From positions 1 through 47,786 of IMG/VR virus record IMGVR_UViG_3300017917_000808: a stretch of DNA of 47,786 bases; one strand, 5' to 3'. The position numbers were made by a program, and so were the translations under genes. The stretch is from a virus. This document shows positions 7,219 to 46,161 of the stretch, piece after piece (within the stretch, counting starts at the first letter, position 1; every line of letters begins with the position of its first letter). A model generated the notes under the pieces. That model ran no database searches, was not told the origin of the DNA, and saw nothing but the letters and a program-made list of their open reading frames with translations.

Positions 7219-7989
7219 ATGGCTATTGAAAATCAATCAACACTTGAAGTATTAAAGCAAAATCTAATTGATTATGTTCGCTTGCAAATTGGCGATCAAA
7301 TCGTTGACCTTGAATTAGATCCTGCCCACTACGAAGCCGCTTATCAAAAAACAATCGGAACTTATCGTCAACGTGCTCAAAATGCCTACGAAGAAAGCTA
7401 TAGTTTTTTACAGTTAGTTCAAGACGTAAGCATTTACACACTGCCACAAGAAGTTATTAACGTTCGACAAGTATTCCGTAGAACGTTTGGTAACAGTCAA
7501 GGTCAATATGCCACAAATTTTGACCCATTTACACAGGCCAGTTTGAACGTTTACTTAATGAACTTTAACGTAGCTGGTGGTTTAGCAACTTATGACTACT
7601 ACACACAGTATGTTGAACTTGCTGGACGTATGTTTGGTGCCTATGTTGTGTTTACTTGGAATCCAGTAACCAAGCGACTACAAATGATGCGTGATTGGCG
7701 CGGCACAGGCGAAGAAGTTTTACTTTGGTGCGATAATTTAAAACCAGAAATTGAACTGCTTTCAAACTACCAAATTGGTCAGTGGATTCGTGATTATATG
7801 GTTGCCAACTGTAAGTACATCATCGGTGAAGCACGTGAAAAGTTTGGACAAATTGCTGGCCCACAAGGTGGCGGCACACTAAACGGCACCGCTATGAAAG
7901 CCGAAGCACAAGCACAAATGGATAGACAAATTGAAGATCTTAAGAACTATGTTGATGGTTCTCAAGGACTTACCTGGGTAATCGGTTAA
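7219..7989 (+). CDS. gp13: Neck (head completion) protein gp13
   Basis: 256 aa. The N-terminal half matches gp13-type neck proteins of T4-like aquatic phages: 'LIDYVRLQIGDQIVDLELDP' at 16-35, 'YQKTIGTYRQRAQNAYEESY' near 42-61, then 'YTLPQEVINVRQVFRR'. gp13 and gp14 close the filled head and provide the tail docking site. The C-terminal part is helical with an Ala/Gln-rich stretch. AGGAG 9 nt upstream supports the ATG and lies in a hairpin loop. The last 20 nt overlap the antisense HNH gene. Note that gp13 is on the plus strand while gp14 and gp15 are inverted. Confidence 0.78.
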   Translation: MAIENQSTLEVLKQNLIDYVRLQIGDQIVDLELDPAHYEAAYQKTIGTYRQRAQNAYEESYSFLQLVQDVSIYTLPQEVINVRQVFRRTFGNSQGQYATNFDPFTQASLNVYLMNFNVAGGLATYDYYTQYVELAGRMFGAYVVFTWNPVTKRLQMMRDWRGTGEEVLLWCDNLKPEIELLSNYQIGQWIRDYMVANCKYIIGEAREKFGQIAGPQGGGTLNGTAMKAEAQAQMDRQIEDLKNYVDGSQGLTWVIG

Positions 7990-8524
7990 TATCTTTAAAA
8001 TTCTTGAGTCCTTTATTCCAAGGCACTCTACCTTTATTAGCTTTAGATACAGCATCCTTCACTGAGTCCGGTCTTGGAATTCCTTTGTTCCAAGTAGATT
8101 TTCCTTTTTTTGCGGCAGATATCTTAGCCTTCCATTCGTTAGTAAAATCTTCTTTTGTTCGACCAGTTTTTCGTCCCCAGTTATGATGTTGCTCGCCAGT
8201 TACAGATTTTTGAGATTCGATAAACTCTGCTCTGAGACTTTCGTATAAACGTCCCTTAACCTTTTTTCGATGTTGATGGTTATTACACAAATTCATAATA
8301 GCCCAAAGTGCATATACCATTTTTTGCTTTTCTTTTCCAGTATACATTTTGGCAAGTAATAAATGGCATACAAAATGTTCTCTTGGTGTGAGTTTAACCA
8401 AATTATCTTTTCGGTTTGAACCACCGAGTGATTTTGGCACGATGTGGTGCGTTTCAAAAATGGCAGGAACCTCTCTTGACTTAGCACGTTCAATTATGTT
8501 AAAATAAAGTTTACTATAGTTCAT
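7970..8524 (-). CDS. HNH homing endonuclease with NUMOD3-type repeats
   Basis: 184 aa. The HNH core is 'HHIVPKSLGGSNRKDNLVKL' at 26-45 followed by 'REHFVCH' at 48-54, so H26/H27, N41 and H50/H54 are in place. The C-terminal part has two 'WNKG' units (145-148 and 169-172) typical of NUMOD3 DNA-binding repeats. Such free-standing genes cut recipient phage DNA and spread by repair. It lies antisense between gp13 and dexA, overlapping the end of gp13 by 20 nt, and starts 11 nt from the divergent dexA start. A CATAAATA element ends 6 nt before its ATG. Confidence 0.9.
   Translation of the reverse strand: MNYSKLYFNIIERAKSREVPAIFETHHIVPKSLGGSNRKDNLVKLTPREHFVCHLLLAKMYTGKEKQKMVYALWAIMNLCNNHQHRKKVKGRLYESLRAEFIESQKSVTGEQHHNWGRKTGRTKEDFTNEWKAKISAAKKGKSTWNKGIPRPDSVKDAVSKANKGRVPWNKGLKNFKDINRLPR
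8476..8505 (+). promoter_or_regulatory. Possible host-type promoter for dexA inside the antisense HNH gene
   Basis: TTGACT (8476-8481), 18 nt, TAAAAT (8500-8505). It points to the ATG at 8536 with a leader of about 24 nt. Both hexamers match well, but it lies in coding DNA. Confidence 0.3.
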
Positions 8525-16222: not shown

Positions 16223-16587
16223 TGAGTACTATTAACGAAACCAATTTTAAAGTTGATCAAACTGTTAGAATTTTTGATCAGTTTTATCGTTATGAAGCCA
16301 ACGTTCCTGCAGATGAGTACGATATTGTTTACAGTTATTTCCGCAGTGTGTTTACTACTGATCAGGCAGCGGCTAACTTTACCAGTTCATTATTTCAAGT
16401 GGCTAGCGAAACCAATGTTCCTGCAACTGATTTGCTAAAAACATTCCAAGGTCAGGGAACCGATCAAATGCAATTGACTATTACTATGGCTTACTATCTT
16501 AACAGCATTCGTAGCCCAGCTACGTTGTTAGGAGTGTTAACACCAACAACTCCTAATTATTGGACAGCCAGAAACGTAAGACAATGA
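16222..16587 (+). CDS. Small putative virion protein
   Basis: 121 aa, started at an ATG overlapping the previous stop (TAATG). It is helical in the middle ('DEYDIVYSYFRSVFTTDQAA') with no motif I can name. Its position between a tube-like protein and gp4, and the tight coupling to both, suggest a structural or assembly role. Its stop overlaps the gp4 start in an ATGA junction. Confidence 0.6.
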   Translation: MSTINETNFKVDQTVRIFDQFYRYEANVPADEYDIVYSYFRSVFTTDQAAANFTSSLFQVASETNVPATDLLKTFQGQGTDQMQLTITMAYYLNSIRSPATLLGVLTPTTPNYWTARNVRQ

Positions 16588-17015
16588 GTAAGTTTGCTAA
16601 CGGCATTTACCAAGTTAAAAATCCACAAAAGTATGTAGGCAAACGTAGCCCACGTTACCGTTCAGGTTGGGAATTTGCCTTTATGACTTTTTGTGACAAC
16701 AACGATCACATTGTACAATGGGCTAGTGAGAGTATCACTATACCCTATCGTAATCCGTTAACTGGTAAAAATACAATTTATGTGCCAGACTTTCTTGTTC
16801 AATATCGTACTAAAAACAATCAAGTTATCACCGAACTTATTGAAATCAAACCTAAAAAGCAAAGTGTGATTGAAAGCAAAGCGTCGGCTAGAGATCGTGC
16901 GGCAGTAGCTGTTAACTATGCCAAATGGGATGCCGCTATGAAATGGTGTAAGCGTAATGGACTTATCTTTCGCGTCATAACAGAGGATGACTTGTTCGTA
17001 AATGGAAAGAGATAA
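16584..17015 (+). CDS. gp4: Head completion protein gp4 (TnsA-like nuclease fold)
   Basis: 143 aa from the ATG at 16584 overlapping the previous TGA; an upstream ATG at 16560 is inside the previous gene. 'VKNPQKYVGKRSPRYRSGWE' (11-30), 'YVPDFLVQYRTK' (66-77) and 'ELIEIKPKKQ' (84-93) place E30, D69 and E87-x-K89 as in restriction-type/TnsA-like nucleases. T4 gp4 is a similar-sized protein needed to finish packaged heads; it may trim or protect DNA at the portal. A late-type element begins just before its stop codon. Confidence 0.88.
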   Translation: MSKFANGIYQVKNPQKYVGKRSPRYRSGWEFAFMTFCDNNDHIVQWASESITIPYRNPLTGKNTIYVPDFLVQYRTKNNQVITELIEIKPKKQSVIESKASARDRAAVAVNYAKWDAAMKWCKRNGLIFRVITEDDLFVNGKR

Positions 17016-17018: not shown

Positions 17019-17046
17019 ACATTGTAGGAGATTTTACAATGTTATT
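17015..17046 (+). promoter_or_regulatory. 12-bp hairpin sequestering the HNH start codon
   Basis: AATAACATTGTA (17015-17026) pairs perfectly with TACAATGTTATT (17035-17046). The loop GGAGATTT carries the Shine-Dalgarno and the ATG at 17039 is inside the 3' arm. Transcripts from upstream should be untranslatable; a late transcript begun near 17024 would lack most of the 5' arm. T4 controls I-TevI, soc and lysozyme in this way. Confidence 0.8.
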
Positions 17047-17788
17047 CGAAAACAACAAATATTCCAGGTGGTATAATTCAATAATTCAGAGTGCTAGGGA
17101 GAGGACAACGGTCCTCTCTTACTCCGAAAAACATCACATCATTCCAAAATCAATCGGTGGATCAAATCTTAAAGAAAATTTAGTAAGTCTTACGGCTAGA
17201 GAACATTTTATTTGTCATTATTTGTTGACTAAAATGTTAACAGGATCTGCTAAACAAAAAATGATTTATGCATTTTGGCAATTAGCTAATGTAAAGAATT
17301 TAAGCCAAGATCGTTATAGAGCAACCAATAAATCGTACGAGGTTGCTAAAAAATTATTTGCCGCCGCACATTCTTCGAACATGAAACAAAACCATCCTTT
17401 AAGAAAAGAAGAAAATAAAAGAAAGCACCAGCTTGGAGTAGATAAAAGAGGCCCAACATCAGTCAAAGGAGCCAAACGTTCTGAATCAATGAAAGAAAAG
17501 ATGAGGAATAGAACATGGACAGAAAAAGCAATCCAAAATAGGCTGAAAAATTGTTTAGACAATGCGGCTAAACGTAAAGGGAAACCAAACCCAGAACACG
17601 GTAACCGTATATTTAACGCATATGTAAACAAAAATAAAGATTTATTCCCTCAAATTTGGTCTCTCTACAATGCTGGGATCAACCGTCGACAGATATCCAT
17701 GCAGTTAGGGATAAGTTGGGACCGAGTTGATTTGGCTATAAATAGGAAACTAGATATACAATCAGTATTGGAGAATCAAAATTACTAA
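17039..17788 (+). CDS. HNH homing endonuclease with C-terminal helix-turn-helix
   Basis: 249 aa. The HNH core 'HHIIPKSIGGSNLKENLVSL' (32-51) plus 'REHFICHYLL' (54-63) is close to that of the antisense HNH gene at 7970-8524, so the two are relatives. The middle is basic and helical. The C-terminal 40 residues ('IWSLYNAGINRRQISMQLG') look like a helix-turn-helix DNA reader rather than the NUMOD3 units of its relative. It sits between gp4 and terS, and its 3' end overlaps the only plausible Shine-Dalgarno-linked start of terS. Confidence 0.9.
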   Translation: MLFENNKYSRWYNSIIQSARERTTVLSYSEKHHIIPKSIGGSNLKENLVSLTAREHFICHYLLTKMLTGSAKQKMIYAFWQLANVKNLSQDRYRATNKSYEVAKKLFAAAHSSNMKQNHPLRKEENKRKHQLGVDKRGPTSVKGAKRSESMKEKMRNRTWTEKAIQNRLKNCLDNAAKRKGKPNPEHGNRIFNAYVNKNKDLFPQIWSLYNAGINRRQISMQLGISWDRVDLAINRKLDIQSVLENQNY

Positions 17789-18299: not shown

Positions 18300-18908
18300 A
18301 TGAAACATTTTAAAGAATATCTTGCAGAATCGGAAAGAGTTTATGAGTATCGCATTAAAATTTGTGGCGATGCTGACACTTCTTTCATCAATGCACTAAA
18401 AGACAAGTGCGCTCAATTTGATGTGGTAAAGTTTGGTGATGTTAAAACAACACCTGTACAGGCTAAGATTCCTGACTTTCCTAATTTTCAAAATGATCGT
18501 TTGAGCACAATCGACGTGACTTTCCGTTATCCAGCTATCGAGCCTCAAATTAAACAATTAGCACAACTACTTGGATTTGATCCAAATAAGATTTGTATGC
18601 AGACTGTGCCATTTCTTAATTCAGTTGATGACGAGCGTGCTAAAGTTGAAGCACAACCAGAATCATTGTTAGCTGATACCGATTATCCAGCACCTGATGC
18701 AGAACAAAAAGCATTGAGCAAAGATTATTCAACTGGTCCATATGATCATGCGGTGTTAAAAAATGCCTATAGAAGTGATTTCACAGTAGCAGGTGGCAAG
18801 ACCCCCGAAGCTGTAACTACAAACGACATGCCAATGGGTAATACTAGTCCAATGAGCAAAGTTAAGCGTCCAGCAAAGCCAGCAACCGGCGCCCAACCAA
18901 GAGGATAA
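18300..18908 (+). CDS. Putative internal head protein with capsid-targeting-like N-terminus
   Basis: 202 aa. It begins 'MKHFKEYLAE', very like the T4 internal-protein targeting peptide, and the L-A-E10 end fits the T4 prohead protease rule (Leu/Ile-x-Glu, cut after Glu). Residues 15-105 form a compact alpha/beta domain ('YEYRIKICGDAD', 'RLSTIDVTFRYPAIEPQIKQL'), perhaps of ferredoxin/ACT type. The last 90 residues are low-complexity and Pro/Ala-rich. The function of the domain is unknown. It is followed 4 nt later by another putative internal protein. Confidence 0.6.
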   Translation: MKHFKEYLAESERVYEYRIKICGDADTSFINALKDKCAQFDVVKFGDVKTTPVQAKIPDFPNFQNDRLSTIDVTFRYPAIEPQIKQLAQLLGFDPNKICMQTVPFLNSVDDERAKVEAQPESLLADTDYPAPDAEQKALSKDYSTGPYDHAVLKNAYRSDFTVAGGKTPEAVTTNDMPMGNTSPMSKVKRPAKPATGAQPRG

Positions 18909-18912
18909 TATA

Positions 18913-20373
18913 ATGACATTTTTTTACGACTTAAACAAAAAGCTAGCGGCACTTGCTGGTGTACAGCTCAACGAAGGTAAAGCTAAACCCGACTTCTTAG
19001 ATGTCGACAAAGATGGCGACAAAAAAGAGCCAATGAAGAAGGCATTTAAAGACAAGATGAAAGAAGTTGAAGAATCAACCGGTAATTATTCTGCTAAGAA
19101 AGCACGTGCTGGTAAGGATATTGGCAAGCCAGGCAAGCAGTTTGCTAAGATTGCCAAGTCGGCAGCCGAGCGTTATGGCAGCAAAGAGCGTGGTGAGAAA
19201 GTTGCTGGCGCTGTATTAGCCAAGTTGCGCAAAGAAGATGTCACTGATGAAGGTAATGCTTTTACTGCTAAACTTAAAGCTACACCGAAGGGTGGAAAGT
19301 TTAAATTAGGCGACAAAGAATTTACTGATACTTCAACTATTGAAGAGAAAAAAGAAAAACCAAAAGCCAAGAATGCGTTTGATCCAGAAGTGGCACGTTC
19401 AATGTTTGCACCTGAAAAAGGTAAAACAAAAACTGGTCACGAAGTTAAAGACACAGGTTACTCTAAGCGTTACACAAAAGATTTTGATGACACATATTCA
19501 TCTGACGAAGACGACGACAATGATGGTGCACCAAAGAAAAAAGGCCGCAAGGCAGTTGGTGCTGGTAAAGGCAAGAAAATTGGTGCTAAACACAAAGGCA
19601 CGAGCAAGTTACACCGTAAAGCAGCCATCGCTGAAACTGACCTAGAAGAAAAAGCAGTAAGTCAAGCTCAACAAAAGTTTATGGGCATGGCACACGCTAT
19701 TCAAAAGGGAGAAAAAGTTAAAGGCGCAAGCTCAGAACTTAAGAAAGTTGCCAAGACAATGAAGAAGTCTGATGTTAAAGACTTTGCTAGAACCAAACAT
19801 AAAGGTTTGCCAAAGCATGTTAAACACGAAGAAGTTGAAGAAACAACTACTAGTGGTTCTGTAGCCCCAGTGGCTAATGCTCCTAAGACTGCTAAGTCTG
19901 GTGGTATTGAGTTTGGTAAAGGTGTTTATGAAGCAATGAACGAAAAACTTGAATCATTAATTACCGAAGGTATGAATGTTACTGTTAATATGGGTCAAAG
20001 CCAAGAAGGACAAGCAACTAAAAATATCACAGTAAGTGCTGATGGTGATGATGCTGATGCATTGGCTAAGTTATTAAATTTAGCAGGATTACAAGGTCAG
20101 TCTGAACATGCTTGCCCAACATGCGGTGAAGAACCATGTGGTTGTGCGGAAGTAGTTGATGAGAATGCTCCTGATTGGCCCACTGAAGAAGAGTATAGTG
20201 ATGATGCATTACAATACGCAGGTGGATTGAACAAACCTAAAGCAACTGGACAAACAACAGGTGCTCCGTTCAACCGTCAGCGTGAGCGTCAAGGTGCTGG
20301 ACAAATGGCCGAAGCTAAAGATTTAGGTATGAACTTATACAAAGAACTACAAAGCTTCAAAACAAAAAAATAA
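18913..20373 (+). CDS. Lys-rich putative internal head/DNA-associated protein with DUF3008-like segment
   Basis: 486 aa, extremely rich in Lys, Glu and Asp. It opens with 'MTFFYDLNKKLAALAGVQLNE', whose L-N-E21 end could be a prohead protease site. The segment at about 247-305 ('QAQQKFMGMAHAIQKGEKVK' ... 'TKHKGLPKHVK') matches the DUF3008 pattern. A Cys cluster near residue 400 ('CPTCGEEPCGC') may bind zinc. A second site-like 'LITEG' lies near 355. AGAGGA upstream supports the start. The basic composition suits binding packaged DNA. This is a prediction; scaffold or core functions are also possible. Confidence 0.6.
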   Translation: MTFFYDLNKKLAALAGVQLNEGKAKPDFLDVDKDGDKKEPMKKAFKDKMKEVEESTGNYSAKKARAGKDIGKPGKQFAKIAKSAAERYGSKERGEKVAGAVLAKLRKEDVTDEGNAFTAKLKATPKGGKFKLGDKEFTDTSTIEEKKEKPKAKNAFDPEVARSMFAPEKGKTKTGHEVKDTGYSKRYTKDFDDTYSSDEDDDNDGAPKKKGRKAVGAGKGKKIGAKHKGTSKLHRKAAIAETDLEEKAVSQAQQKFMGMAHAIQKGEKVKGASSELKKVAKTMKKSDVKDFARTKHKGLPKHVKHEEVEETTTSGSVAPVANAPKTAKSGGIEFGKGVYEAMNEKLESLITEGMNVTVNMGQSQEGQATKNITVSADGDDADALAKLLNLAGLQGQSEHACPTCGEEPCGCAEVVDENAPDWPTEEEYSDDALQYAGGLNKPKATGQTTGAPFNRQRERQGAGQMAEAKDLGMNLYKELQSFKTKK

Positions 20374-20381
20374 ATTAACAT

Positions 20382-20402
20382 AACCCGGGAATTACCCGGG
20401 TT
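20382..20402 (+). promoter_or_regulatory. 8-bp hairpin between 18913 and 20430 genes
   Basis: AACCCGGG (20382-20389) pairs with CCCGGGTT (20395-20402) around AATTA. No T-run follows on the plus strand; on the minus strand the run toward the A-rich stretch at 20360-20377 is interrupted. It may be a processing or weak termination site. Confidence 0.5.
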
Positions 20403-20429
20403 CAATAATGAGAATATGAGGAATATAAA

Positions 20430-20714
20430 ATGAGCCAAGCCAACGTCTATACATCAGTTAGCAGTCAAGTGTGGTACACAGACAAAGCAAAAATTGCCAC
20501 TGGAACTAATCCTGTTACATTTAACGTAGCACTATCTCCTACATTTACAGGTAACATCTATAGTGCGGCAACACAAGTACCGGCTAACAGTATTGAATTT
20601 ATATATGTTGGTGTTGGTAACAAATTAACTGTAACAGGTGGTAATGTTACGGTAACAGAAGCTGGCACAGCAAGTTCCGGTACTGCTGGTGTTATAGGCG
20701 GTGGCAGTTACTAA
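20430..20714 (+). CDS. Small beta-rich putative virion decoration protein
   Basis: 94 aa, uncharged and rich in Thr, Val, Gly and Ser, ending in a Gly-rich tail; this composition suits a small beta-barrel capsid or fibre protein. GAGGAA about 8 nt upstream supports the ATG. I do not recognise a family. A hairpin precedes it and a putative capsid-targeted protein follows after 2 nt, so it is probably made with head proteins. Confidence 0.55.
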   Translation: MSQANVYTSVSSQVWYTDKAKIATGTNPVTFNVALSPTFTGNIYSAATQVPANSIEFIYVGVGNKLTVTGGNVTVTEAGTASSGTAGVIGGGSY

Positions 20715-20716
20715 TC

Positions 20717-21097
20717 ATGCGAGCACGTGAGTTTATCTCTGAGGGCTCTCGACCCGGCAGTAGAGCCAATGCTCGTCACGATTTTGAAATGGCACATCCT
20801 GGGTTGGTAGGACCCGATGCTAAAAATGATATCTATTGGGGTCGTTACTATGACTTCTATCGTGTGTGCTCGTTAGCTGGTATGAATCTTGAGGATTTAG
20901 ACAAAGTTGATGACATCAACTTCTTTGGTAACTTACCATTATTCAGTGCCTATACTGATTACGATCGCGAAAAACTCAAAGCAATCATGAAAAAGTTGGG
21001 CATGAAGCCCAAGGATATTATTGGCAATGGCAGTTTTGAAACCAACGGAACTCATGCCGTTAGCCCGGTTAAACCATTTAGCGGTTACAACAGATAA
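20717..21097 (+). CDS. MRAxEFIxE family protein A (putative capsid-targeted)
   Basis: 126 aa. It begins 'MRAREFISE', fitting an Ile-x-Glu prohead protease site at E9, and ends 'SPVKPFSGYNR'. Two later genes (21972 and 22370) share both ends and a similar middle: an aromatic segment ('YYDFYRVCSLAGMN'), then 'YTDYDREKLKAIMKKLGM'. I recall this family as frequent in aquatic T4-like phages; its function is unknown. No ribosome site is evident, so coupling to the preceding gene (2 nt away) is likely. Confidence 0.65.
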   Translation: MRAREFISEGSRPGSRANARHDFEMAHPGLVGPDAKNDIYWGRYYDFYRVCSLAGMNLEDLDKVDDINFFGNLPLFSAYTDYDREKLKAIMKKLGMKPKDIIGNGSFETNGTHAVSPVKPFSGYNR

Positions 21098-21099
21098 CC

Positions 21100-21972
21100 A
21101 TGTGCATCATTGTTGCAAAATACTTTCCTGGTATAGGATGGGCCGGTGCCAAGAACAGAGATCGCAACTACACTCCCACATTAGATTTCATCGAAGATAA
21201 TCATCGCGGCATCGAACGCATGATGATGCATGATGGTGTCACGGGTTACAAAGAAGGTATTAACAGTACTGGACTTAGCATACTAAACACCAGCCTTGAC
21301 GTATATGATGACGAAACCGAAGTTGAAGCAGGTACTGTAGAATCCAGTCCTGATGGGAAAATCATAGCTCAAGCACTACTATATCGAGAACCGTTAGATG
21401 CAATAAAATTATTAGTTAGAAAAAAACTAGGTGGTTGTACTATTGTGTTCAATCAACGGGATCTATATCTAATAGAAGCCACAGATGATGATGGTAAAAA
21501 TCCATATAGATATCTCGTAAAAAAGATTGGACGAAATAATACTGTAGCACGTAGCAACCACGGCATTTGGCTTGATGATGCTGGCTACCAAAGAAATCCT
21601 AAAAATGAAAGCGAATATCTGGGTAGAATTAGCAGTGATGCTAGATTGCTACAAGCTCAAGCAGTGGTCAAAGCCGCCGACAAGCCTGAGGATTTAGTTG
21701 ATGGCATGTGTCAAGTATATGTCAATGATCCACAGCTAAATATAATGAGAACCAGTACAGAACGCAAGAAAATGCGTACTACTAGTCAGCAGTTATGTGT
21801 ACCAAAAGAACGTACATTGTATTGTCGACCAATAAGCAGTCATGTAGAATTTGATTTCTGGAGTTTGAACAAACCTGATACTAATGTATGGGTTGAGATA
21901 TTAGGCAATCGTGAGTTGTGGCAAAACACCAAAGGTAAACCATTTGGTCATATGAATATGAAAGATTTGTAA
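21100..21972 (+). CDS. Ntn-hydrolase-like protein (N-terminal Cys nucleophile)
   Basis: 290 aa. It begins 'MCIIVAKYFPGIGWAGAKNRDRNY'-type sequence (shown in part): Cys2 would become the N-terminal nucleophile once Met is removed, and 'NRDRNY' (about 18-23) matches the Asn/Arg/Asp motif of choloylglycine-hydrolase, acyltransferase and NRDE-type Ntn enzymes. Later 'GINSTGLSILN', 'GGCTIVFN' and 'ARSNHG' fit the expected strand pattern. These enzymes cleave amide bonds; the substrate here is unknown. It lies between two capsid-targeted-like genes, and its stop overlaps the next start (TAATG). Confidence 0.65.
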   Translation: MCIIVAKYFPGIGWAGAKNRDRNYTPTLDFIEDNHRGIERMMMHDGVTGYKEGINSTGLSILNTSLDVYDDETEVEAGTVESSPDGKIIAQALLYREPLDAIKLLVRKKLGGCTIVFNQRDLYLIEATDDDGKNPYRYLVKKIGRNNTVARSNHGIWLDDAGYQRNPKNESEYLGRISSDARLLQAQAVVKAADKPEDLVDGMCQVYVNDPQLNIMRTSTERKKMRTTSQQLCVPKERTLYCRPISSHVEFDFWSLNKPDTNVWVEILGNRELWQNTKGKPFGHMNMKDL

Positions 21973-22373
21973 TGCGAGCAAAAGAATTTATCAGCGAAGC
22001 AAAATACGGCAGTGCCGCTGACGTTCCTGCGAGTTCTAAAAAATTGCCCAAGTCACACCATTCGGCTATCAAGGGTGCTATCAGCATGCCCGATATCAGC
22101 CAAACTAAACAGGGTGGTAGCCCATATACACAATGGCGCTTTGGTATCGCCATGGCAGGAGCACCGGATTATCCTACTGAACCGGCTGGTGCATTTGCTG
22201 GAGATCCATTATTAGCAACTTATAGTGATGCTGATTTAGAAATTATCAACTCAGCCGCTAAGATGGTTGGTGCCGGAGAGGTTAAGAAACTTACGGATAA
22301 TCGTAGTACCGAGCCAGAATATGTACAGAAAACTAGTCCTGTTAAAGGATTTAAAGGTTATAAGAGAAAATGA
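21972..22373 (+). CDS. MRAxEFIxE family protein B (putative capsid-targeted)
   Basis: 133 aa. It begins 'MRAKEFISE' and ends 'SPVKGFKGYKRK'. The middle has 'YTQWRFGIAMAGAP' and 'YSDADLEIINSAAKMVG', aligning with family members A and C. It would lose nine residues if the phage prohead protease cuts after E9. It is translationally coupled at both ends (TAATG before, ATGA after). The function is unknown. Confidence 0.65.
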   Translation: MRAKEFISEAKYGSAADVPASSKKLPKSHHSAIKGAISMPDISQTKQGGSPYTQWRFGIAMAGAPDYPTEPAGAFAGDPLLATYSDADLEIINSAAKMVGAGEVKKLTDNRSTEPEYVQKTSPVKGFKGYKRK

Positions 22374-22759
22374 GAGCTCGTGAGTTTATTAAAGAAAGTC
22401 GCGTAGGATCGATCACACAAGATGTGGGTCGAGCACTTCCTGGTGCGTTTAAAATTCCTGCTCTTAAAAATCAAGATCCATATTTACAATATCGTTTTGG
22501 AGTGGCTATAGCTGGTGCTAAAGGTGCTAAACAACGTGCTAAGGATGATGTTCCTCCATTTGAACGTGAAAGTGTATTTGGGGAAAACGAAATCATAGTA
22601 AGTTATGATCCAGACGTTGAAACATATATTAAAGATGCTTTAGTTGCCATGGACATGCCCCCAAGCGATGCTGTACGCATTGGCACACAGGCTAGTGAAG
22701 AAGCACTGGACGTCAGTAAGAATAGTCCATTAAAGCCATTCCGCGGCTACAAACGATAG
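22370..22759 (+). CDS. MRAxEFIxE family protein C (putative capsid-targeted)
   Basis: 129 aa. It begins 'MRAREFIKE' and ends 'SPLKPFRGYKR'. The middle 'YLQYRFGVAIAGAKGA' aligns with 'YTQWRFGIAMAGAP' of protein B, and 'YDPDVETYIKDALVAMDM' with the later helix of A and B. The copies have diverged strongly at the DNA level, so duplication is old or they were acquired separately. The start overlaps the preceding TGA. Confidence 0.65.
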   Translation: MRAREFIKESRVGSITQDVGRALPGAFKIPALKNQDPYLQYRFGVAIAGAKGAKQRAKDDVPPFERESVFGENEIIVSYDPDVETYIKDALVAMDMPPSDAVRIGTQASEEALDVSKNSPLKPFRGYKR

Positions 22760-22771: not shown

Positions 22772-23482
22772 GTGAAGCCCGTACTCATTCTCCAACACCA
22801 AACCCCTGAACAGCCAGCATATCTTGTGACCTGGCTTGAACAACATAACATTCCTTACGAAATACGTAACGCTGGCTCTGGAGAAGATTTCCCTACAAGC
22901 ATTGAACCTTATTCGGCACTGGCTGTAATGGGTGGAGCTATGAGCTCTAATGATCCATTGTTGAGCAATCGTCAAGCAGAAATTCTTATATTGCAGGCTG
23001 TACTTAAAAATATTCCAACCATAGGACATTGTCTAGGCGGGCAACTAATGACACGGGCACTGGGTGGTACTATAGGACCAAGTCCACAGCCCGAAATTGG
23101 CTGGCAACCTATTGCTTATGAAGATAATGAATTGGTCGAGCATTGGTTTGGCAACAACCCTACACCTACAGTTATTCAGTGGCACTACGAAGCATTTACC
23201 ATACCCACGGGTGCTACAAAATTAGCAGGATCACCTGCCTGCCCTAATCAAGCCTGGGCACTGGGCCCTCATCTGGCCATGCAGTTTCATATTGAAATGG
23301 ACGAGTCAAAAGCACACTGGTGGGCCAACGATGAAGACCCTAAATGGGCAGAGTCAAGAGCATTGTATGAATCGGTACAAGACAAAGATGCTATTATAGC
23401 GGGCATAGAACTGCATTTATCCCAACATCAAGCAACAGCCAATCACATTTATGCAACTTGGTTTAACCATGCTCGAGTATAA
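22772..23482 (+). CDS. Class I glutamine amidotransferase-like protein
   Basis: 236 aa from GTG. The triad of class I amidotransferases is present: C87 in the elbow 'GHCLGGQ' and H173/E175 in 'FHIEMD'. 'AVMGGAMSSND' (51-61) forms the oxyanion region. There is no fused synthetase domain, so it either releases ammonia for a partner or hydrolyses a gamma-glutamyl compound, as single-domain relatives do. Its location next to putative internal head proteins and an Ntn-hydrolase is unusual. A longer protein from an upstream non-ATG codon is not supported. Confidence 0.8.
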   Translation: MKPVLILQHQTPEQPAYLVTWLEQHNIPYEIRNAGSGEDFPTSIEPYSALAVMGGAMSSNDPLLSNRQAEILILQAVLKNIPTIGHCLGGQLMTRALGGTIGPSPQPEIGWQPIAYEDNELVEHWFGNNPTPTVIQWHYEAFTIPTGATKLAGSPACPNQAWALGPHLAMQFHIEMDESKAHWWANDEDPKWAESRALYESVQDKDAIIAGIELHLSQHQATANHIYATWFNHARV

Positions 23483-23510: not shown

Positions 23511-24821
23511 ATGTCTTGGCCATCAACACCGGGTCCTACACCTTATCAGCACCCATTTCCTAACTATCAGTTAAATGATCTACATCAGGCCATGGACTAT
23601 AACGCAGCTGGTGAGCCTCTTATTCGTGTGGCTACATATCCTGGCGTTGCTGATATATCTACCAGTGATGCGTTTGGTCGTGCTAGAGTAGCACAGCCTT
23701 ACACCCTATTTGATAGTGCGTTTATTGGTACAAACGACGGGCACAAATTTGACACATCCACATCAGGTGGAGCAAGTACATCGTACAATTCATATGCTAG
23801 CACAGTATCAATGACTGTGGGCACAGCATCGGGTGACCAAGTGATCCGTCAAAGTTATCGCGTGTTTCCGTATCAACCGGGCAAAGCATTAGAAGTATTT
23901 CAAACATTTACTATGGCCGCTGCACAGACTAATTTGCGTCAGCGTGTGGGTTATTTTACAGCATACAACGGAATCTATTTAGAACAAGATGGTACTACTG
24001 TAAATCTTGTTATTCGTCAGCAAACGGGTGCGTCAACCTATACTGAAGATCGTGTGGCACAAGCCGATTGGAATGGAGATCCTCTTAATGGATCAGGCCC
24101 AAGTGGCATTACTATTGATTTAACCAAGAGTCAAATTTTTTACACAGCTATCGAATGGTTAGGCGTAGGTAGTGTATTCTGCGGATTTATCATCAATGGT
24201 CAATACATACTTGCACATCAATTCAACCACGCCAACGAAGCTACATCAACATACATGCAAAGTGCTCAGATGAGTATTCGTCTTGAAATAACCAACACTG
24301 GTACTACTACTGGTGCTACTATGCAACAAATTTGTTCAAGCGTAATTTCATCTGGTGGATATAGTCCTAATGCCACACAACAATTTACTGGTCGAGGATT
24401 GACTTATTATACTATGACCACCGCTGGGACCTACTACAATCTTGTTAGTTTAAGATTAGGCACAGATGGCATCGACTATAATAAAGTTGTTTATCTTGAT
24501 GCATTAAATGTTCTTACGGACAGTAATCAAAATATGGAATGGCGGGCTATACTTAATCCGACATTCAGTTCCAGTCCAACTTGGGCCAACGTTACTACCT
24601 TTACCCAATACACAACATCTGATGTTACTGTAACTGGCGGCACAGTCATTGGCACAGGCTATGTGGTTAACAAAGGTGAACCAGTGAGTTTAACTGGTGA
24701 TGCACTAAAGTATCAAATTGGTCGCAGTATTGCTGGCGTAAGCGATGTAATCTGTATTGCAGTTACAGCAGACAGCAATAATGTCAAACTTGGCGGCACA
24801 ACAGGATTCTTTGAAATTTAA
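23511..24821 (+). CDS. Putative virion structural protein (fibre or capsid-associated)
   Basis: 436 aa, rich in Thr, Ser, Tyr and Gln with little charge, as in beta-structured virion proteins. 'FGRARVAQPYTLFDSAFIG' (about 54-72), 'VIRQSYRVFPYQPGKALEVF' and 'LRQRVGYFTAYNGIYLEQDG' match a family I recall from aquatic T4-like phages, often labelled structural protein. A perfect late promoter and a GAGAG ribosome site precede it. No receptor-binding domain is evident. Confidence 0.65.
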   Translation: MSWPSTPGPTPYQHPFPNYQLNDLHQAMDYNAAGEPLIRVATYPGVADISTSDAFGRARVAQPYTLFDSAFIGTNDGHKFDTSTSGGASTSYNSYASTVSMTVGTASGDQVIRQSYRVFPYQPGKALEVFQTFTMAAAQTNLRQRVGYFTAYNGIYLEQDGTTVNLVIRQQTGASTYTEDRVAQADWNGDPLNGSGPSGITIDLTKSQIFYTAIEWLGVGSVFCGFIINGQYILAHQFNHANEATSTYMQSAQMSIRLEITNTGTTTGATMQQICSSVISSGGYSPNATQQFTGRGLTYYTMTTAGTYYNLVSLRLGTDGIDYNKVVYLDALNVLTDSNQNMEWRAILNPTFSSSPTWANVTTFTQYTTSDVTVTGGTVIGTGYVVNKGEPVSLTGDALKYQIGRSIAGVSDVICIAVTADSNNVKLGGTTGFFEI

Positions 24822-24822
24822 T

Positions 24823-25536
24823 ATGAAAAAAATATTACTTGTATTATTATTTGTTCCACTATCTGTGCTTGCACAGATCGCACAACAGTGCCCACAATTT
24901 TTACCTAACGGTCCTGTAGCTTATCAAGCACAACCAGGCGACCAAGAGTTATGTAAAACTAATTACGCTGTCATACACAAATGCTCAGTTAAGGCACCTA
25001 TTGCTGTGTTTGAACATTTGACCATTGCGGCTATGACAGGTCCAGCCAAGCGTAAGGACAACTTCCGTCCCGACCCACAAGTATATCCACAATGCTCTGC
25101 AAGTTTAGCAGACTATGCCACTGTAGGCAAGACACACGATCGTGGGCACATGGCACCAGCAGGTAACAACACACAAAATGATGCTATTATGAGTGAAAGT
25201 TTCTTCCTATCAAACATGGTAGCACAAGTGGCCAACAACAATCGCGGTGCGTGGCGTTTATTAGAAGCCGCAGAACGCCAATGGGCTATGCAACCTGGAA
25301 CAGATTTTTATGTTATTAGTGGAGGAATTTATGATTCTGGTCATCCGGTCACTGGAAATGGTTTAGGAATCCCAACCCGTTTATATAAAGTTATTGTTGA
25401 AAAAAATAGTCGCCGAGTGCAAGCATACATAATGCCTAACGCAAACATTAATCCAGCGACTGATTGGCCTAAATACCAAACCACTATGGCGGAAGTTGAA
25501 CGTGCAACCGGTATGCGTTTTAATTTAGGACAATAA
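24823..25536 (+). CDS. Secreted DNA/RNA non-specific endonuclease
   Basis: 237 aa from ATG 24823, one base after the previous stop. A classical signal peptide is present: two Lys, then 'ILLVLLFVPLSV' and a likely cut after 'LA' at 17. The mature part is a beta-beta-alpha metal nuclease of the NUC family: 'HDRGHMAPAGNN' at 105-116, with H109 as the general base, then 'SFFLSNMVAQVANNNRGAWR' carrying the Asn/Arg metal and phosphate contacts. Cys 23, 44, 54 and 91 could form disulfides outside the cytoplasm. It should act in the periplasm or medium: degrading superinfecting DNA or feeding on released nucleic acid are options. Confidence 0.85.
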   Translation: MKKILLVLLFVPLSVLAQIAQQCPQFLPNGPVAYQAQPGDQELCKTNYAVIHKCSVKAPIAVFEHLTIAAMTGPAKRKDNFRPDPQVYPQCSASLADYATVGKTHDRGHMAPAGNNTQNDAIMSESFFLSNMVAQVANNNRGAWRLLEAAERQWAMQPGTDFYVISGGIYDSGHPVTGNGLGIPTRLYKVIVEKNSRRVQAYIMPNANINPATDWPKYQTTMAEVERATGMRFNLGQ

Positions 25537-25574: not shown

Positions 25575-25599
25575 TCTAACACTGTAAGGAGTGCCAGCA

Positions 25600-26211
25600 A
25601 TGATATTTAACAAAAAACATCCACCGGCGGGTTATTACGTTTATGCCTATCTACGAAAATCCAATTTGACACCTTATTATATCGGCAAAGGTAAAGATAT
25701 TAGAGCTATTGAGAAGCATAATATTACTGTGCCAAAAGATCCTACCAAGATAATCATTCTTGAACAAAATTTAACAGAAATTGGAGCATTTGCTATTGAA
25801 CGCAGGCTTATACAATGGTGGGGTCGCAAGGATATAAAAACTGGTATCCTATTAAACAAAACAGATGGTGGCGATGGTGCGTCGGGTCGTGTATCAAAAC
25901 AAGGTAAGGAATCTCCGTTGTATGGTAGAAAAAGACCAGAATTTAGTAAAATGCTCAAAGGTAGAAAACGACCAGACCAATCTAAAATTATGAAGGGTAG
26001 ATATGTTGGAGAATTGAATCCTCGGTATGGCAAGCCAGGAACATTTACTGGAAAGAAGCATAGTGAAGAAGCATTAGCTAAAATGCGACGATCAACCGGC
26101 CCACATACAAAACCAAGAGAACTTTTAACTTGTCCGTATTGTCAAAAAATATCCGATTCGAGTAATGCTAAACGATGGCACTTTGATAACTGTAAAGTTA
26201 AATTGCCATAA
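25600..26211 (+). CDS. GIY-YIG homing endonuclease with NUMOD3 repeats and zinc finger
   Basis: 203 aa from ATG 25600, supported by AAGGAG 8 nt upstream (an in-frame GTG at 25591 lies on top of that site). The GIY-YIG fold appears as 'YYVYAYLR' (12-19) and 'YYIGKGKD' (26-33), with a likely catalytic Glu in '[11 protein letters not shown]'. Then come NUMOD3-like units ('[20 protein letters not shown]', '[18 protein letters not shown]'). The end carries a C2HC-type finger 'CPYCQK ... WHFDNC'. It sits directly upstream of terL. Confidence 0.9.
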
Positions 26212-26219: not shown

Positions 26220-27797
26220 ATGAGCAAAAGCCTTGAAGGCGTCTTAATTAAGGCGCCGCACAAACGCCAAACATTTACTGACGACGAACTTCAAGAGTTC
26301 CTAAAGTGCGCTGATCCAGTTACTGGACCTGAATATTTTATGGACAACTATTTTTATATACAACACCCCACCAGGGGTAAAATGTTGTATCATCCATTTG
26401 ACTATCAGAAGAGACTGATTCACACCTATCATAATTATCGATTTTCAATCTCAATGATGCCACGACAAACGGGCAAATCAACTTCGGCTGCTGGCTACTT
26501 ACTTTGGTACGCACAATTCATTCCAGACTCAACTATTCTTATTGCCGCTCACAAATACACAGGATCACAAGAGATCATGCAACGTATTCGTTATGCGTAT
26601 GAACTGTGTCCAGATTTTATCCGAGCAGGTGTAATCAGTTACAACAAAGGATCAATAGACTTTGAAAACGGATCACGCATAGTATCAGCAACAACTACAG
26701 AAAACACAGGTCGTGGTATGTCTATATCACTACTATATGCTGACGAGTTTGCGTTTGTTCGACCCGGTATTGCCAAAGAATTCTGGACTTCTATTAGCCC
26801 TACACTAGCCACAGGTGGTAAGGCAATTATTACAAGCACACCTAACTCCGACGAAGATCAGTTTGCGTTACTGTGGAAGGGTGCTAATAAGATGGAAGAT
26901 GCTTACGGTAATCCAACTGACGTGGGCATTAACGGGTTCCGTGCTTATCGTTCATATTGGAACGAGCATCCAGACCGCGATGATAAATGGGCAGAAGAAC
27001 AGCGAGCACAACTAGGTGAAGATCGTTTCCGTCGTGAAATGGATTGTGAATTCATTATCAATGATGAAACACTTATTGCCCCAACAAAACTTATTGATTT
27101 ATCGGGCATTGATCCAGTATATCGCACAGGACAAGTACGTTGGTATAAAAATCCTGAACCAAATAAGATTTATGTAGTAGCCCTAGATCCAAGTTTAGGC
27201 ACAGGTGGAGACCCAGCAGCCATACAAGTATTCGAAGCCAACTCGACTACGCAAATTGGCGAATGGAGACATAATCGCACAGATATTCCTACACAGATAC
27301 GCATACTAGCGGACATTATTAAACACATATACGATCATAATAAGAACGATGATAAAAGCATATACTATAGCGTAGAGAATAACACAATTGGTGAAGCGGC
27401 ATTAATATCCATAGCAGAGTTTGGCGAAGAAAATATCAAGGGTTACTTTTTAAGCGACAATACTGTGGTTAGTTCTGGCGGTCGCCGTTATCGCAAGGGA
27501 TTTAACACAACAAATAAATCTAAACTTTCTGCTTGTAACAAACTCAAAGTTTTAGTAGAATCCAATCGTATGAAAATACTGTCAAAACCATTGGTATCAG
27601 AGCTCAAAACATTTGTTGCTCGCGGCACTACCTATGCCGCAAAAGACGGTGAAACAGACGATTTAGTTATGGCTACTATATTAAGTGTGCGTATGATGCA
27701 AATTTTACAAGATTATCACACAGAAATGGACAGTCAGATGCGTGATCACGGTGATGTGCTAATTGAGCCGATGCCGTTCATTTCTGTTATGCACTAA
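26220..27797 (+). CDS. gp17: Terminase large subunit gp17
   Basis: 525 aa. ATPase domain: Walker A 'PRQTGKST' (81-88) and Walker B 'LLYADEFAF' (171-179) with catalytic E176, then a coupling motif 'TSTPNS'. Nuclease domain: D323 in 'VVALDPSLGTGGDPAAI', E386 in 'YYSVENN' and D480/D481 in 'DGETDDLVMA'. It pumps DNA into the head and cuts concatemers. There is no evident Shine-Dalgarno before the ATG, and the GIY-YIG gene ends 8 nt upstream, so the insertion may have displaced its original leader. Confidence 0.95.
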   Translation: MSKSLEGVLIKAPHKRQTFTDDELQEFLKCADPVTGPEYFMDNYFYIQHPTRGKMLYHPFDYQKRLIHTYHNYRFSISMMPRQTGKSTSAAGYLLWYAQFIPDSTILIAAHKYTGSQEIMQRIRYAYELCPDFIRAGVISYNKGSIDFENGSRIVSATTTENTGRGMSISLLYADEFAFVRPGIAKEFWTSISPTLATGGKAIITSTPNSDEDQFALLWKGANKMEDAYGNPTDVGINGFRAYRSYWNEHPDRDDKWAEEQRAQLGEDRFRREMDCEFIINDETLIAPTKLIDLSGIDPVYRTGQVRWYKNPEPNKIYVVALDPSLGTGGDPAAIQVFEANSTTQIGEWRHNRTDIPTQIRILADIIKHIYDHNKNDDKSIYYSVENNTIGEAALISIAEFGEENIKGYFLSDNTVVSSGGRRYRKGFNTTNKSKLSACNKLKVLVESNRMKILSKPLVSELKTFVARGTTYAAKDGETDDLVMATILSVRMMQILQDYHTEMDSQMRDHGDVLIEPMPFISVMH

Positions 27798-29778: not shown

Positions 29779-30465
29779 ATGAATTACTTGTATATTAAAA
29801 CACACACTAAAACTGGATTAAAATATCTAGGACAAACATCAAAAACAGATCCACACAAATACACCGGATCTGGAAAGTATTGGTTAAGCCATGTTAAGAA
29901 ACATGGTAAAGATTGGACCACAGAAATACTTTTAGAATCTCCAAACAAAGAAGATATTAATAAAGCAGGAATCTATTATAGCCAACTATGGAACGTAGTG
30001 GAAAGTTCAGAATGGGCAAACTTAAAACCAGAATCTGGTGATGGTGCCGCATCCGGACGATACAATCCAATGAATAATCCTGATATAAAGTCTAAGCAAC
30101 AAACAATAATTCGTTCACCGGAAATCAAAGAAAAACACCGCCAAGCAACTATTGCGGCAATGAATCGCCCTGAGGTTGTAGAAAAATTAAAGGCATATCG
30201 AAATACCAAAGAATATAAAGAGCGGTTGAATCAAACATTAAATCGCCCGGATATGAGATTGAATCGCGGAGGTTCTAGGAATTCGATGTTTGATTCTACA
30301 ATTTATACATTTGAGCATGTTAATGGAGAGAGATTCATCGGAACACGATTCGACTTTAATAAAACTTACCATCTTACTAATGGTAGCGTGTCGAGATTGA
30401 TAAATGGAAAATATAAAATTACACAAGGCTGGAAATTATCCAATACACCAGTTTTGCCAATTTAG
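29779..30465 (+). CDS. GIY-YIG homing endonuclease
   Basis: 228 aa. The catalytic domain begins 'NYLYIKTHTKTGLKYLGQTS' (2-21), a GIY-YIG variant with 'YLG', continuing to 'AGIYYSQLWNVV' and 'NLKPESGDGA'. The rest is basic with repeated 'NRPE/NRPD' helices, a likely DNA-binding part, and a C-terminal 'NGSVSRLINGKYKITQGW' resembling NUMOD1-type readers. It lies immediately upstream of gp32 and behind its own late-type element and hairpin. Confidence 0.87.
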   Translation: MNYLYIKTHTKTGLKYLGQTSKTDPHKYTGSGKYWLSHVKKHGKDWTTEILLESPNKEDINKAGIYYSQLWNVVESSEWANLKPESGDGAASGRYNPMNNPDIKSKQQTIIRSPEIKEKHRQATIAAMNRPEVVEKLKAYRNTKEYKERLNQTLNRPDMRLNRGGSRNSMFDSTIYTFEHVNGERFIGTRFDFNKTYHLTNGSVSRLINGKYKITQGWKLSNTPVLPI

Positions 30466-35589: not shown

Positions 35590-36344
35590 CATTTCGTAAC
35601 AACGAAGAAGCACATCAGCACAGTCTTCAAACTTTAAATACCTTTTATGAATTTGATGACTTTATGGAGAGCTTGTCTCTTGTAGCTGATTTTGGGTGCG
35701 GCAACGGTCTTGATTTAGAATGGTGGGCAACTAGAACCACAAGAGACGACGCTCAGAGACCTTTAAACATTGAATGTGTTGGAATTGACACAAAAGATGA
35801 ACTACCAATAGCAAGACAATATCGTAATATAATATATCAAAAGACTGATTTTGAAGAAGACTTTCTTTTGATTAAACAAAGACCTTATGATTTAATATGG
35901 TGTCATAATTCATTTCAGTACTGTATTAATCCTGTACAAACATTGGGCAATTGGTGGCACAAAGTTTCTTTGGGTGGCATTCTAGCATTAGTTGTTCCAC
36001 AAACAACTAATATTCATAGGAAACAACAGGCATTTGAATTAGACAATGGTTGCTACTATCATCACACTTTGGTTAGTCTAATGTACATGTTAGCAGTCAA
36101 CGGATGGGATTGTCGTAATGGATATTTTCTTAAACAAATTGATGATAATTGGTTACACGCTGTAGTTTATAAGAGTGAGCATAAACCAATGAATCCTAAA
36201 ACTACAACCTGGCATAATCTTGCTGAACTTGGTTTATTACCTGAGTCAGCTGAAAAAAGTATTTACGCTCATAATGCTGTTAGACAGCAAGATCTTATTT
36301 TACCTTGGATGGATAAAAGTTTAACTTGGTATGGTAACCATTAA
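35586..36344 (+). CDS. Class I SAM-dependent methyltransferase
   Basis: 252 aa from GTG 35586, overlapping the uvsY stop (GTGA); an ATG at 35529 in this frame lies inside uvsY. Motif I is 'VADFGCGNGLDLEWWA' (33-48), followed by 'CVGIDTKDELPIARQ' and 'YDLIWCHNSFQYCINPVQTL', as in Methyltransf_11 enzymes. The target is unknown. It is the first gene of the sugar/methyl region, and its end overlaps by 24 nt the minus-strand gene that follows. Confidence 0.8.
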   Translation: MTFRNNEEAHQHSLQTLNTFYEFDDFMESLSLVADFGCGNGLDLEWWATRTTRDDAQRPLNIECVGIDTKDELPIARQYRNIIYQKTDFEEDFLLIKQRPYDLIWCHNSFQYCINPVQTLGNWWHKVSLGGILALVVPQTTNIHRKQQAFELDNGCYYHHTLVSLMYMLAVNGWDCRNGYFLKQIDDNWLHAVVYKSEHKPMNPKTTTWHNLAELGLLPESAEKSIYAHNAVRQQDLILPWMDKSLTWYGNH

Positions 36345-37160
36345 TCGTTGAAGTGGTGACCCTGTAGCAATTTCCTTTATCGTCCACTCTGAGTGGGCAA
36401 GTTCATTTAACCACTGCTCTCTATCTGGGCGCAGTGGTTTTTCTATTTGTGATAGATCGGTATTAGACACAGGCAAAGCTAGACTAGTATTGCCCACAAA
36501 AGCAGGAACTCCAGACATAATTGCTTGACACCCAGGGCCACTATTGTGATTAACCACTGCCCATGCTTGATCTAGTACACGTTCATAATCAAAACTATCA
36601 TAGGTATTAACCAAGGGTTTAGGTTGTTCTATAACTGTACCTGGTATGTTGGTAATACGCTGACGAGGATGCGGACGAATGATAATAGGGCGTTCACTAT
36701 ATTCTCTGATTTTTCTCACAGTATCCGAAAGCCAAGTTGCTGTTGGCGGCATACTAGCCCATTGTTCGCTGTCATTACGTTGACAAGCGATAACAATGTT
36801 TACTCCGTTATCCTTCCAAGGTTTTAATGTTAAACCTAATTCTTCCGCACGACCTAGTTTTATCTTGCCAGGGTAGCAATCAGCCCACGTACCATTTAAT
36901 CCAAGTTTCCAAGTCGAACCTCTGCGTAGCATGCCAACTTCTAGAACAAACACAGGTTTGTTTTGTTGTCTATATAAGCGATAAATGCCTTCGTTTTGCT
37001 TCATTCTACCATGCCAAAGTACTGACCAAATAACTGCGGCATCAGCATCCATACTATTTGGCACAGTTTCAATACCTAACCAGGCACATCCTTGTAAAAA
37101 GGCATCTAGTGCAGGTTGGGCATTTAGGGCGATCTGGTTTGGAAAGTAGGCTATACGCAT
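36321..37160 (-). CDS. GT-B-like protein, paralog 1 of 3
   Basis: 279 aa. It shares with the proteins at 42670-43620 and 43592-44704 a C-terminal half: 'RKIREYSERPIIIRPHPRQR', then 'WAVVNHNSGPGCQAIMSGVPAFVG', a Pro-rich link, and 'PDREQWLNELAHSEWTIKEIATG'. The order strand-'RPHP', 'HNS...A...G.PaF' resembles the nucleotide-binding half of GT-B glycosyltransferases and capsule-synthesis proteins. The N-terminal half is shorter than in its relatives. A sugar transferase role is inferred. Its ATG is only 17 nt from the divergent gene at 37178. Confidence 0.6.
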   Translation of the reverse strand: MRIAYFPNQIALNAQPALDAFLQGCAWLGIETVPNSMDADAAVIWSVLWHGRMKQNEGIYRLYRQQNKPVFVLEVGMLRRGSTWKLGLNGTWADCYPGKIKLGRAEELGLTLKPWKDNGVNIVIACQRNDSEQWASMPPTATWLSDTVRKIREYSERPIIIRPHPRQRITNIPGTVIEQPKPLVNTYDSFDYERVLDQAWAVVNHNSGPGCQAIMSGVPAFVGNTSLALPVSNTDLSQIEKPLRPDREQWLNELAHSEWTIKEIATGSPLQRLMVTIPS

Positions 37161-37163
37161 AGG

Positions 37164-37171
37164 GTTAAATA
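37164..37171 (+). promoter_or_regulatory. Late-like GTTAAATA, 6 nt before the 37178 start
   Basis: GTTAAATA then TTCATT then the ATG. The gap between the two divergent start codons is only 17 nt, leaving no room for a standard leader on either side. Confidence 0.35.
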
Positions 37172-37177
37172 TTCATT

Positions 37178-37963
37178 ATGAGATTACCACCTATTTACGG
37201 AAATTTAAACCAAGAGAAATTTTTTATCTATGCCGCCGCTGATGCTGGTTATTTTGATACATATGCTCGGCCACTGATTAACAGTGTACTTAAAAATGCG
37301 CCCGACGTAGGTGTACACATTCATATATACGATCCAAATCCGGAACAAATAGAGTTTTGTCGACAGCCAAATGTAAGTTATACTTACGAGAACCTTGACC
37401 TGGTAGTCTTTGCTGGCATCACTGAATTTTGGTTAAAGCGCACCGGATTAACTAATGATCGCCAACGACAGATGTTTAAAAAAGGACAAACTCTAGGAAA
37501 AGAAGAACTACATAAATTAGTAAAACAAACCTACTATGCCTGTGCAAGATTTGTACGTCTGTCAGAGATATTACCTCAAGGTAAAAAGTGTCTAGCCATT
37601 GATGTTGATGGATTAGTACGTGGAAAATTTGATTACAATCTAGGTACCGCTGACTTTTATCTATACGAAAAACCCAAAGATGGCACACACTTAGCCGGTG
37701 CCATATTATTCAATGGTCAATCGGGCACTCACAAGTTTTTACAAAATTATGCCATAAAACTTAGAGAGTCTTTTGAGCAAGATGATTTGTATTGGTTCTT
37801 GGATCAATTAATATTAGATCAGTTAGTACCTCAGTACAATAAAGGATTGTTGCCCATGAGTTATATTGACTGGGCCATGAGACCAGAAAGTTCTATATGG
37901 TCAGCTAAAGGCAAACGTAAAGAACTCGACATATTCAAAAACGAACAAAGAAAGTACCTATGA
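37178..37963 (+). CDS. GT-A-type glycosyltransferase
   Basis: 261 aa. 'FFIYAAADAGYFDTYARPLI' opens a GT-A-like fold, and 'YYACARFVRLSEILPQGKKC' then 'LAIDVDGLVRG' provides the metal-binding DxD (D-V-D) after the typical 'RF..l.e.l' helix of GT8-like enzymes. 'HLAGAILFNGQSGTHKFLQN' fits the acceptor region. The donor is unknown. It is first in a run of seven plus-strand genes, joined to the next by an ATGA overlap. Confidence 0.65.
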   Translation: MRLPPIYGNLNQEKFFIYAAADAGYFDTYARPLINSVLKNAPDVGVHIHIYDPNPEQIEFCRQPNVSYTYENLDLVVFAGITEFWLKRTGLTNDRQRQMFKKGQTLGKEELHKLVKQTYYACARFVRLSEILPQGKKCLAIDVDGLVRGKFDYNLGTADFYLYEKPKDGTHLAGAILFNGQSGTHKFLQNYAIKLRESFEQDDLYWFLDQLILDQLVPQYNKGLLPMSYIDWAMRPESSIWSAKGKRKELDIFKNEQRKYL

Positions 37964-46148: not shown

Positions 46149-46153
46149 AAAGT

Positions 46154-46161
46154 TATTTATA
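46154..46161 (-). promoter_or_regulatory. Perfect late promoter TATAAATA, 5 nt before the start
   Basis: TATAAATA then ACTTT then the ATG at 46148 on the minus strand. It is a perfect T4 late consensus; the expected start site is the start codon itself. Confidence 0.65.

Follow-up and report, generated by a model that had tools for sequence, protein, structure and literature searches.

Five proteins encoded in a 4.5-kb stretch (positions 18300–22759) of the virus-collection record IMGVR_UViG_3300017917_000808, whose full 47,786 bases are referred to here as the window, begin with short peptides resembling the capsid-targeting sequences of T4 internal proteins. We consider it very probable that all five are internal head proteins of a T4-superfamily jumbo phage, targeted by this N-terminal tag, cut by the gp21 prohead protease and kept in the head together with the DNA. 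In the course of events that we infer, the first 9, 10 or about 21 residues would bind the prohead scaffold core as capsid-targeting sequences, gp21 would cut after the Glu of [L/I]xE once assembly is complete, and the mature bodies would stay in the head of the finished virion with the DNA and then be ejected into the host. Capsid targeting and the gp21 site are well supported by sequence comparison; the cluster proteins probably travel inside the virion and may enter the cell along with the DNA, and a counter-defence role for the variable members is a fair guess. The capsid-targeting interpretation is drawn from the conservation of the control residues of T4 IPIII, the presence of gp21 and gp23 in relatives and the occurrence of the tag on unrelated bodies.

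The first-pass annotation had listed five N-termini (MKHFKEYLAE, MRAREFISE, MRAKEFISE, MRAREFIKE and a longer leader ending L-N-E), and all five open reading frames (ORFs) and their starts were found as described. The cluster, with lengths in amino acids (aa), reads as follows.

18300..18329, +: tag of P202, MKHFKEYLAE, a predicted capsid-targeting peptide with a predicted cut after E10; F4, Y7, L8 and E10 are invariant in homologues (compare MKTYQEFIAE of T4 IPIII)
18300..18908, +: P202, a 202-aa tagged protein comprising the tag, a ferredoxin-like domain at about 15–102 and a low-confidence C-terminus; its homologue in Pseudomonas phage PA5oct, a member of the Arenbergviridae, is flagged as a virion protein
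18913..18975, +: longer leader of P486, MTFFYDLNKKLAALAGVQLNE, ending QLNE, with a predicted cut after E21 and G as the next residue; FFYDLNK...LxE pattern in relatives
18913..20373, +: P486, a 486-aa Lys-rich protein with a DUF3008 domain at 248–303, a candidate core or internal protein; its positional homologue in PA5oct, EST35_0203, is flagged by electrospray ionization tandem mass spectrometry (ESI-MS/MS)
20430..20714, +: 94-aa protein without a tag, inside the cluster (ORF)
20717..21097, +: MRA1, 126 aa, tag MRAREFISE followed by G, C-terminus SPVKPFSGYNR (ORF and alignment)
21100..21972, +: 290-aa protein without a tag, starting MC, 64–80% conserved in relatives; no Pfam or PHROG match
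21972..22373, +: MRA2, 133 aa, tag MRAKEFISE followed by A, 80–86% identity in relatives (ORF and alignment)
22370..22759, +: MRA3, 129 aa, tag MRAREFIKE followed by S, a more variable paralogue (35–70%); ATGA overlap with MRA2

The residue after the P202 tag is S. AlphaFold models predict a short N-terminal helix at the tags; the amphipathic character first ascribed to them found little support, as their hydrophobic moments do not rise above those of shuffled peptides (9–52% of shuffles are equally high). The two genes of the interval that lack a tag (20430–20714 and 21100–21972) had both gone without comment in the first-pass annotation. The second of these, lying between MRA1 and MRA2, encodes a 290-aa protein with the start MC(I/V)IVAKYF..GAKNRDR, which we take to resemble Ntn-hydrolase-like proteins.

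Conservation of the N-terminal tag

The regular expression ^M[KR].{1,5}[FY][ILVM].E matches 4 of the 56 genes counted in the window, against a mean of 0.066 and a maximum of 2 when residues 2–14 are shuffled within each protein (0 of 2000 shuffles reach 4), an optimistic figure given that the expression was written after the peptides had been seen. Two large relatives gave similar tests: in G002 the motif occurs in 6 of 452 genes (0.36 expected), and more weakly in G001 in 2 of 407 (0.25 expected, p = 0.027), where some starts are miscalled. When all possible starts of both were scanned, most matches fell in the corresponding cluster. Since the expression was chosen post hoc, the conservation tests below carry more weight.

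A scan of public viral contigs, retrieved with MRA2 peptides, yielded 56 loci with relatives of the 133-aa MRA2. When MRA homologues were collected irrespective of the motif, it was present in 132 of 134 ORFs; of the other two, one is cut by a contig end and one has a wrongly chosen start. Alignment of 119 MRA sequences shows eight invariant columns, five of which lie in the first nine residues (M1, R2, A3, F6 and E9), followed by a variable linker; because only tag-positive ORFs entered this alignment, the count made without a filter gives the fairer figure. The DNA beneath the tag occurs in 107 distinct 27-nucleotide versions among 133, with synonymous changes present, and it is therefore the residues rather than the DNA that are conserved. 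On this ground we rejected the idea that a signal in the DNA or RNA keeps the start constant.

The P202 family retains the motif in 23 of 23 loci, with F4, Y7, L8 and E10 invariant. For an independent set, homologues were searched with patterns from body peptides; at least 500 public viral contigs encode P202, and in the best 80, which were read, M1, K2, F4, Y7, L8 and E10 are invariant (80/80), position 9 is A, T, V or I, and positions 3, 5 and 6 vary freely. In T4 IPIII the first ten residues suffice for head entry, residues 4 and 7 direct targeting, residues 8 and 10 direct processing, and gp21 cuts after L/I-X-E (PMC9026906); the invariant positions of the P202 tag are these same four control positions, plus M1 and K2. 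Most of 22 relatives of P486 have a FFYDLNK-type start followed by an LxE-like site within about 15–25 residues.

One tag on unrelated bodies

Clustered with their first 14 residues removed, the tagged proteins fall into unrelated families, namely P202, MRA, a 163–304-aa family, DUF6321 proteins and a 323-aa protein (some families from the loose scan resemble internal starts of other genes and were ignored). The MRA family has several paralogues per genome. The 163–304-aa family, found in 22 loci, carries the tags MKSFREYISE and MKSLKDYLAE, each followed by S, the DUF6321 proteins carry MRASEFIVE and the 323-aa protein MKAHEIIVE. In loci with enough sequence, at least two tagged ORFs lie within 5 kb of P202 in 34 of 34 cases and at least three in 31 of 34, and the set of tagged bodies differs from contig to contig.

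The common start could reflect chance or descent only, MRA1–3 being true paralogues (about 27–35% identical), so that three copies of one gene would not constitute independent evidence. This explanation is very improbable, however, given that the 202-aa, 163–304-aa, DUF6321 and 663-aa GNAT proteins have unrelated bodies behind a similar start and that five of the eight invariant MRA columns are concentrated in the first nine residues.

The last of these bodies comes from relative G002, where a 663-aa protein starting MRFKEFVTE and containing predicted GNAT acetyltransferase domains (Pfam E 6e-13) is encoded outside the region that corresponds to the window, at L086:6394-8385 (G002:C1:279394-281385) and adjoins a tagged DUF6321 protein (MRASDFITE). 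It is a candidate injected acetyltransferase, in a role comparable to that of T4 Alt, an injected ADP-ribosyltransferase cut at ITE-6 (PMC5694885).

Prohead protease and virion proteins in relatives

Six of ten larger records encode gp21 (relatives G001, G002, G003, G005, G006 and G009), and these six also match gp23, although in one of them the sole match lies at the edge of a contig and scores under the family cut-off. In G001 and G002 (320 and 344 kb) the gp21 matches to PF03420 (E 5e-27 and 6e-24) have His, Ser and Asp aligned with those of T4 gp21, in the T4-like gene order gp20, gp67-like, gp21, gp22 and gp23, with an extra small gene after gp20 in G002. N-terminal junctions of gp23 resemble the motif as well: FLTE then A in T4, YLKE then N in G002 and FLVE then N in PA5oct, those outside T4 being placed by alignment.

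The GenBank entry for PA5oct flags the proteins detected by ESI-MS/MS, and we took these flags as deposited. Both the P202 homologue EST35_0202 and EST35_0203 are flagged; the two stand in the corresponding gene order just upstream of the gene for the terminase large subunit (TerL; the PA5oct protein is 51% identical), and EST35_0203 was matched to P486 by position and leader (LRLAGVQAVKE versus LAALAGVQLNE). The proposal that the cluster is packaged thus gains indirect support for P202 and P486, with none comparable for the three MRA proteins.

Several observations weigh against our interpretation of the five as tagged, gp21-cut internal head proteins. The virion flags cover homologues of two of the five cluster genes and no MRA protein; MRA proteins were not detected in PA5oct, and MRA2 and MRA3 had no significant tblastn match in 50,697 cultured phage records. 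The protease gp21, which the first-pass annotation had proposed to seek together with further copies of the motif, is absent from the 47.8-kb fragment itself; that search gave gp21 in the six relatives and the motif in the four window genes. The residue after the tag Glu is not limited to small ones. The MRA tag is one residue shorter than that of T4 and has no aromatic at position 4, so the initial description of 'exactly such peptides' as in T4 suits MKHFKEYLAE and not the MRA form. Across the PA5oct genome an early [ILVM]xE[AGSN] occurs in 15 of 93 MS-detected versus 18 of 352 other proteins (p = 8.5e-4), a mild enrichment to which we give little weight, it being the one loose pattern significant of three tried; a pattern requiring M[KR] was not significant (2/93 versus 3/352). 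Finally, PA5oct EST35_0202 (L107:14690-15292), with the start MKSFRDYYDA, keeps F4 and Y7 and has lost L8 and E10, and the P202 homologue of phage Phosso (L109:10546-11313) keeps F4, Y7 and L8 and has lost E10; cleavage is therefore not universal in the P202 family.

The PA5oct and Phosso tags fit targeting without cutting and are possibly a natural case of an uncut tag, as with T4 IPIII bearing Asp at position 10, which is targeted and not cut (PMC9026906). By keeping F4 and Y7 without E10 they would also suit an N-terminal helix that stays in place and docks to another part of the virion, be it neck, portal or tail, with a structural role for the Glu, and the cluster does come after the tail and head-closure genes. 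Such docking nevertheless appears improbable: E9 or E10 is invariant in 119 MRA and 103 P202 sequences with unrelated bodies, the MRA linker beyond the Glu is variable, and the pattern equals the T4 cleavage motif.

Possible roles of the tagged proteins

Pfam and PHROGs assigned no function to MRA, P202 or the 290-aa protein. The AlphaFold model of P202 is modest (predicted local distance difference test (pLDDT) 70, predicted template modelling score (pTM) 0.45), with a ferredoxin-like domain and, after it, a tail of low confidence, and its Foldseek matches to ribosomal-S6/HPPK-like ferredoxin folds are too weak for naming a function. The MRA models are poor (MRA2 has pLDDT 73 and pTM 0.35), and Foldseek with MRA returned nothing informative.

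The tagged proteins might instead be prohead core or scaffold assembly proteins like T4 gp67, gp68 and gp22: the tag would still direct them and gp21 would still cut them, but they would act in head assembly or genome organization rather than as injected effectors. We entertain this possibility without favouring it. The P486 family is Lys-rich, contains DUF3008 and has several further internal LxE sites in relatives, and at least one MRA protein is present in 29 of 29 P202-found loci with enough downstream sequence. Identity among relatives is 80–86% for MRA2, compared with 68–81% for TerL and 45–75% for most structural proteins, as would be expected for an essential function, although the MRA2 value is biased upward because the compared loci were retrieved with MRA2 peptides. 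Against a purely assembly-related role, the PA5oct record places the homologues in the purified virion, so that they are not simply cleared, MRA3 and other paralogues vary (35–70%), and the cargo set changes between contigs.

MRA2, as conserved as the terminase in this biased sample, does not look like arms-race cargo, a view that we have downgraded. High MRA2 conservation was set aside as strong evidence against such cargo in light of the retrieval bias and of the P202-found loci, where MRA2 above 45% identity lies within reach in only 4 of 29.

Injection is the other prospect. T4 Ip1–3 are injected, have the leader alone in common and each block a different type IV restriction enzyme of the GmrSD enzymes (PMC12373910). 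Their architecture of one tag with unrelated or divergent bodies is seen here too. That the tagged proteins are likewise injected counter-defence proteins strikes us as rather unlikely: Pfam and PHROGs link none of the tagged bodies in the window to a known anti-defence family, and both MRA2 and P202 evolve slowly.

More tentatively, the island upstream of the terminase gene may serve as a clade-wide cargo dock, in which bodies that can replace one another acquire or retain a T4-style tag and several internal proteins are carried, some of them injected effectors; the second tagged site in G002 would then add an injected acetyltransferase in an Alt-like role. The tag principle is known from T4; what appears new, as judged from the genomes, is that a clade of uncultured jumbo phages has internal proteins tagged in the T4 manner, the cargo families and their place in the genome being new as well. 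If this is correct, a tag of 9–10 residues predicts which unknown proteins are head-borne in jumbo phages of a large, common and uncultured group. The capsid-targeting rule, deduced from T4 only, would then reach phages that share 51% TerL identity with the closest relative in culture, and a few candidates would emerge to examine for injection and for an influence on the defences of the host.

Genomic neighbourhood

The tagged cluster lies between two genes of the head and packaging machinery.

16560..17015, +: gp4-type head closure protein (phrog_218 match), upstream of the cluster
26220..27797, +: terminase large subunit (gp17), downstream of the cluster

The downstream position of the TerL gene is the basis on which we assign the cluster to a head/packaging module. 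PHROG matches to T4-like families in the window comprise tail sheath, tail tube, gp4-type head closure, TerL, single-strand-binding protein, UvsX and UvsY. By TerL, the closest cultured relatives are Pseudomonas phages PA5oct, MIJ3, Paride and others (51% identity), and a phage nucleotide search with the window DNA returned no match. We take the source to be an uncultured T4-superfamily jumbo phage.

Downstream of MRA3, 22772–23482 encodes a protein with a class-I glutamine amidotransferase domain (PF00117, E 5e-10), not seen at the corresponding place in G001 or G002. Shortly before the terminase gene, at 24757–25536, stands a nuclease (phrog_14168) with the secretion-like N-terminus MKKILLVLLFVPLSVLAQ; its true start probably lies downstream of the TTG listed, and in some relatives another secretion-like protein occupies this position. 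Probable HNH and GIY-YIG-type homing endonuclease genes are interspersed between structural genes (17039–17788, 7970–8524 on the minus strand, 25591–26211 and 29779–30465), all backed by PHROGs except 7970–8524, which was judged by eye. Also by eye, 36321–46897 is a block of glycosyltransferase-, methyltransferase-, sugar epimerase- and cytidylyltransferase-like genes. At the left end of the record, a tandem-repeat reading frame (20–1351; LLTGGLISATSTITSSANITGGN...) is probably part of a fibre-like protein.

Comparison with T4 and other systems

T4 IPII and IPIII start MKTYQEFIAE followed by A, and IPI starts MKTFKEF. The P202 tag is like the IPIII capsid-targeting sequence in its aromatics at positions 4 and 7, aliphatic at 8 and Glu at 10, and the MRA tag has in common with it the second half, EFIxE (F6, I7 and E9), placed one residue earlier. 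T4 internal proteins likewise combine one tag and an LxE cleavage site with unrelated bodies; P202, MRA2 and MRA3 gave no T4 match by tblastn of the cultured phage records. The T4 internal protein genes lie near e/tRNA, whereas the tagged genes here lie between the head-closure and terminase genes. T4 internal proteins are fast-changing, unlike MRA2 in our biased sample, while MRA3 varies more; members of the set described here are shared, in conserved form, within a clade of uncultured phages. T4 Alt has a short N-terminal propeptide ending I/LxE, as in the present tags, and differs in that no ADP-ribosyltransferase was found in the tagged cluster.

Glu-dependent prohead processing is also known for head proteins of phiKZ and SPN3US, and in SPN3US the paralogues gp53 and gp54 begin with the same 15 residues although their bodies have diverged (PMC5694885). 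Cleavage in those phages follows S/A-x-E or A-x-E, whereas the tags in our cluster end in L/I-x-E as in T4, and phiKZ/SPN3US propeptides are mostly longer (over 100 aa for several SPN3US proteins) than the 9–21 aa of the tags reported here.

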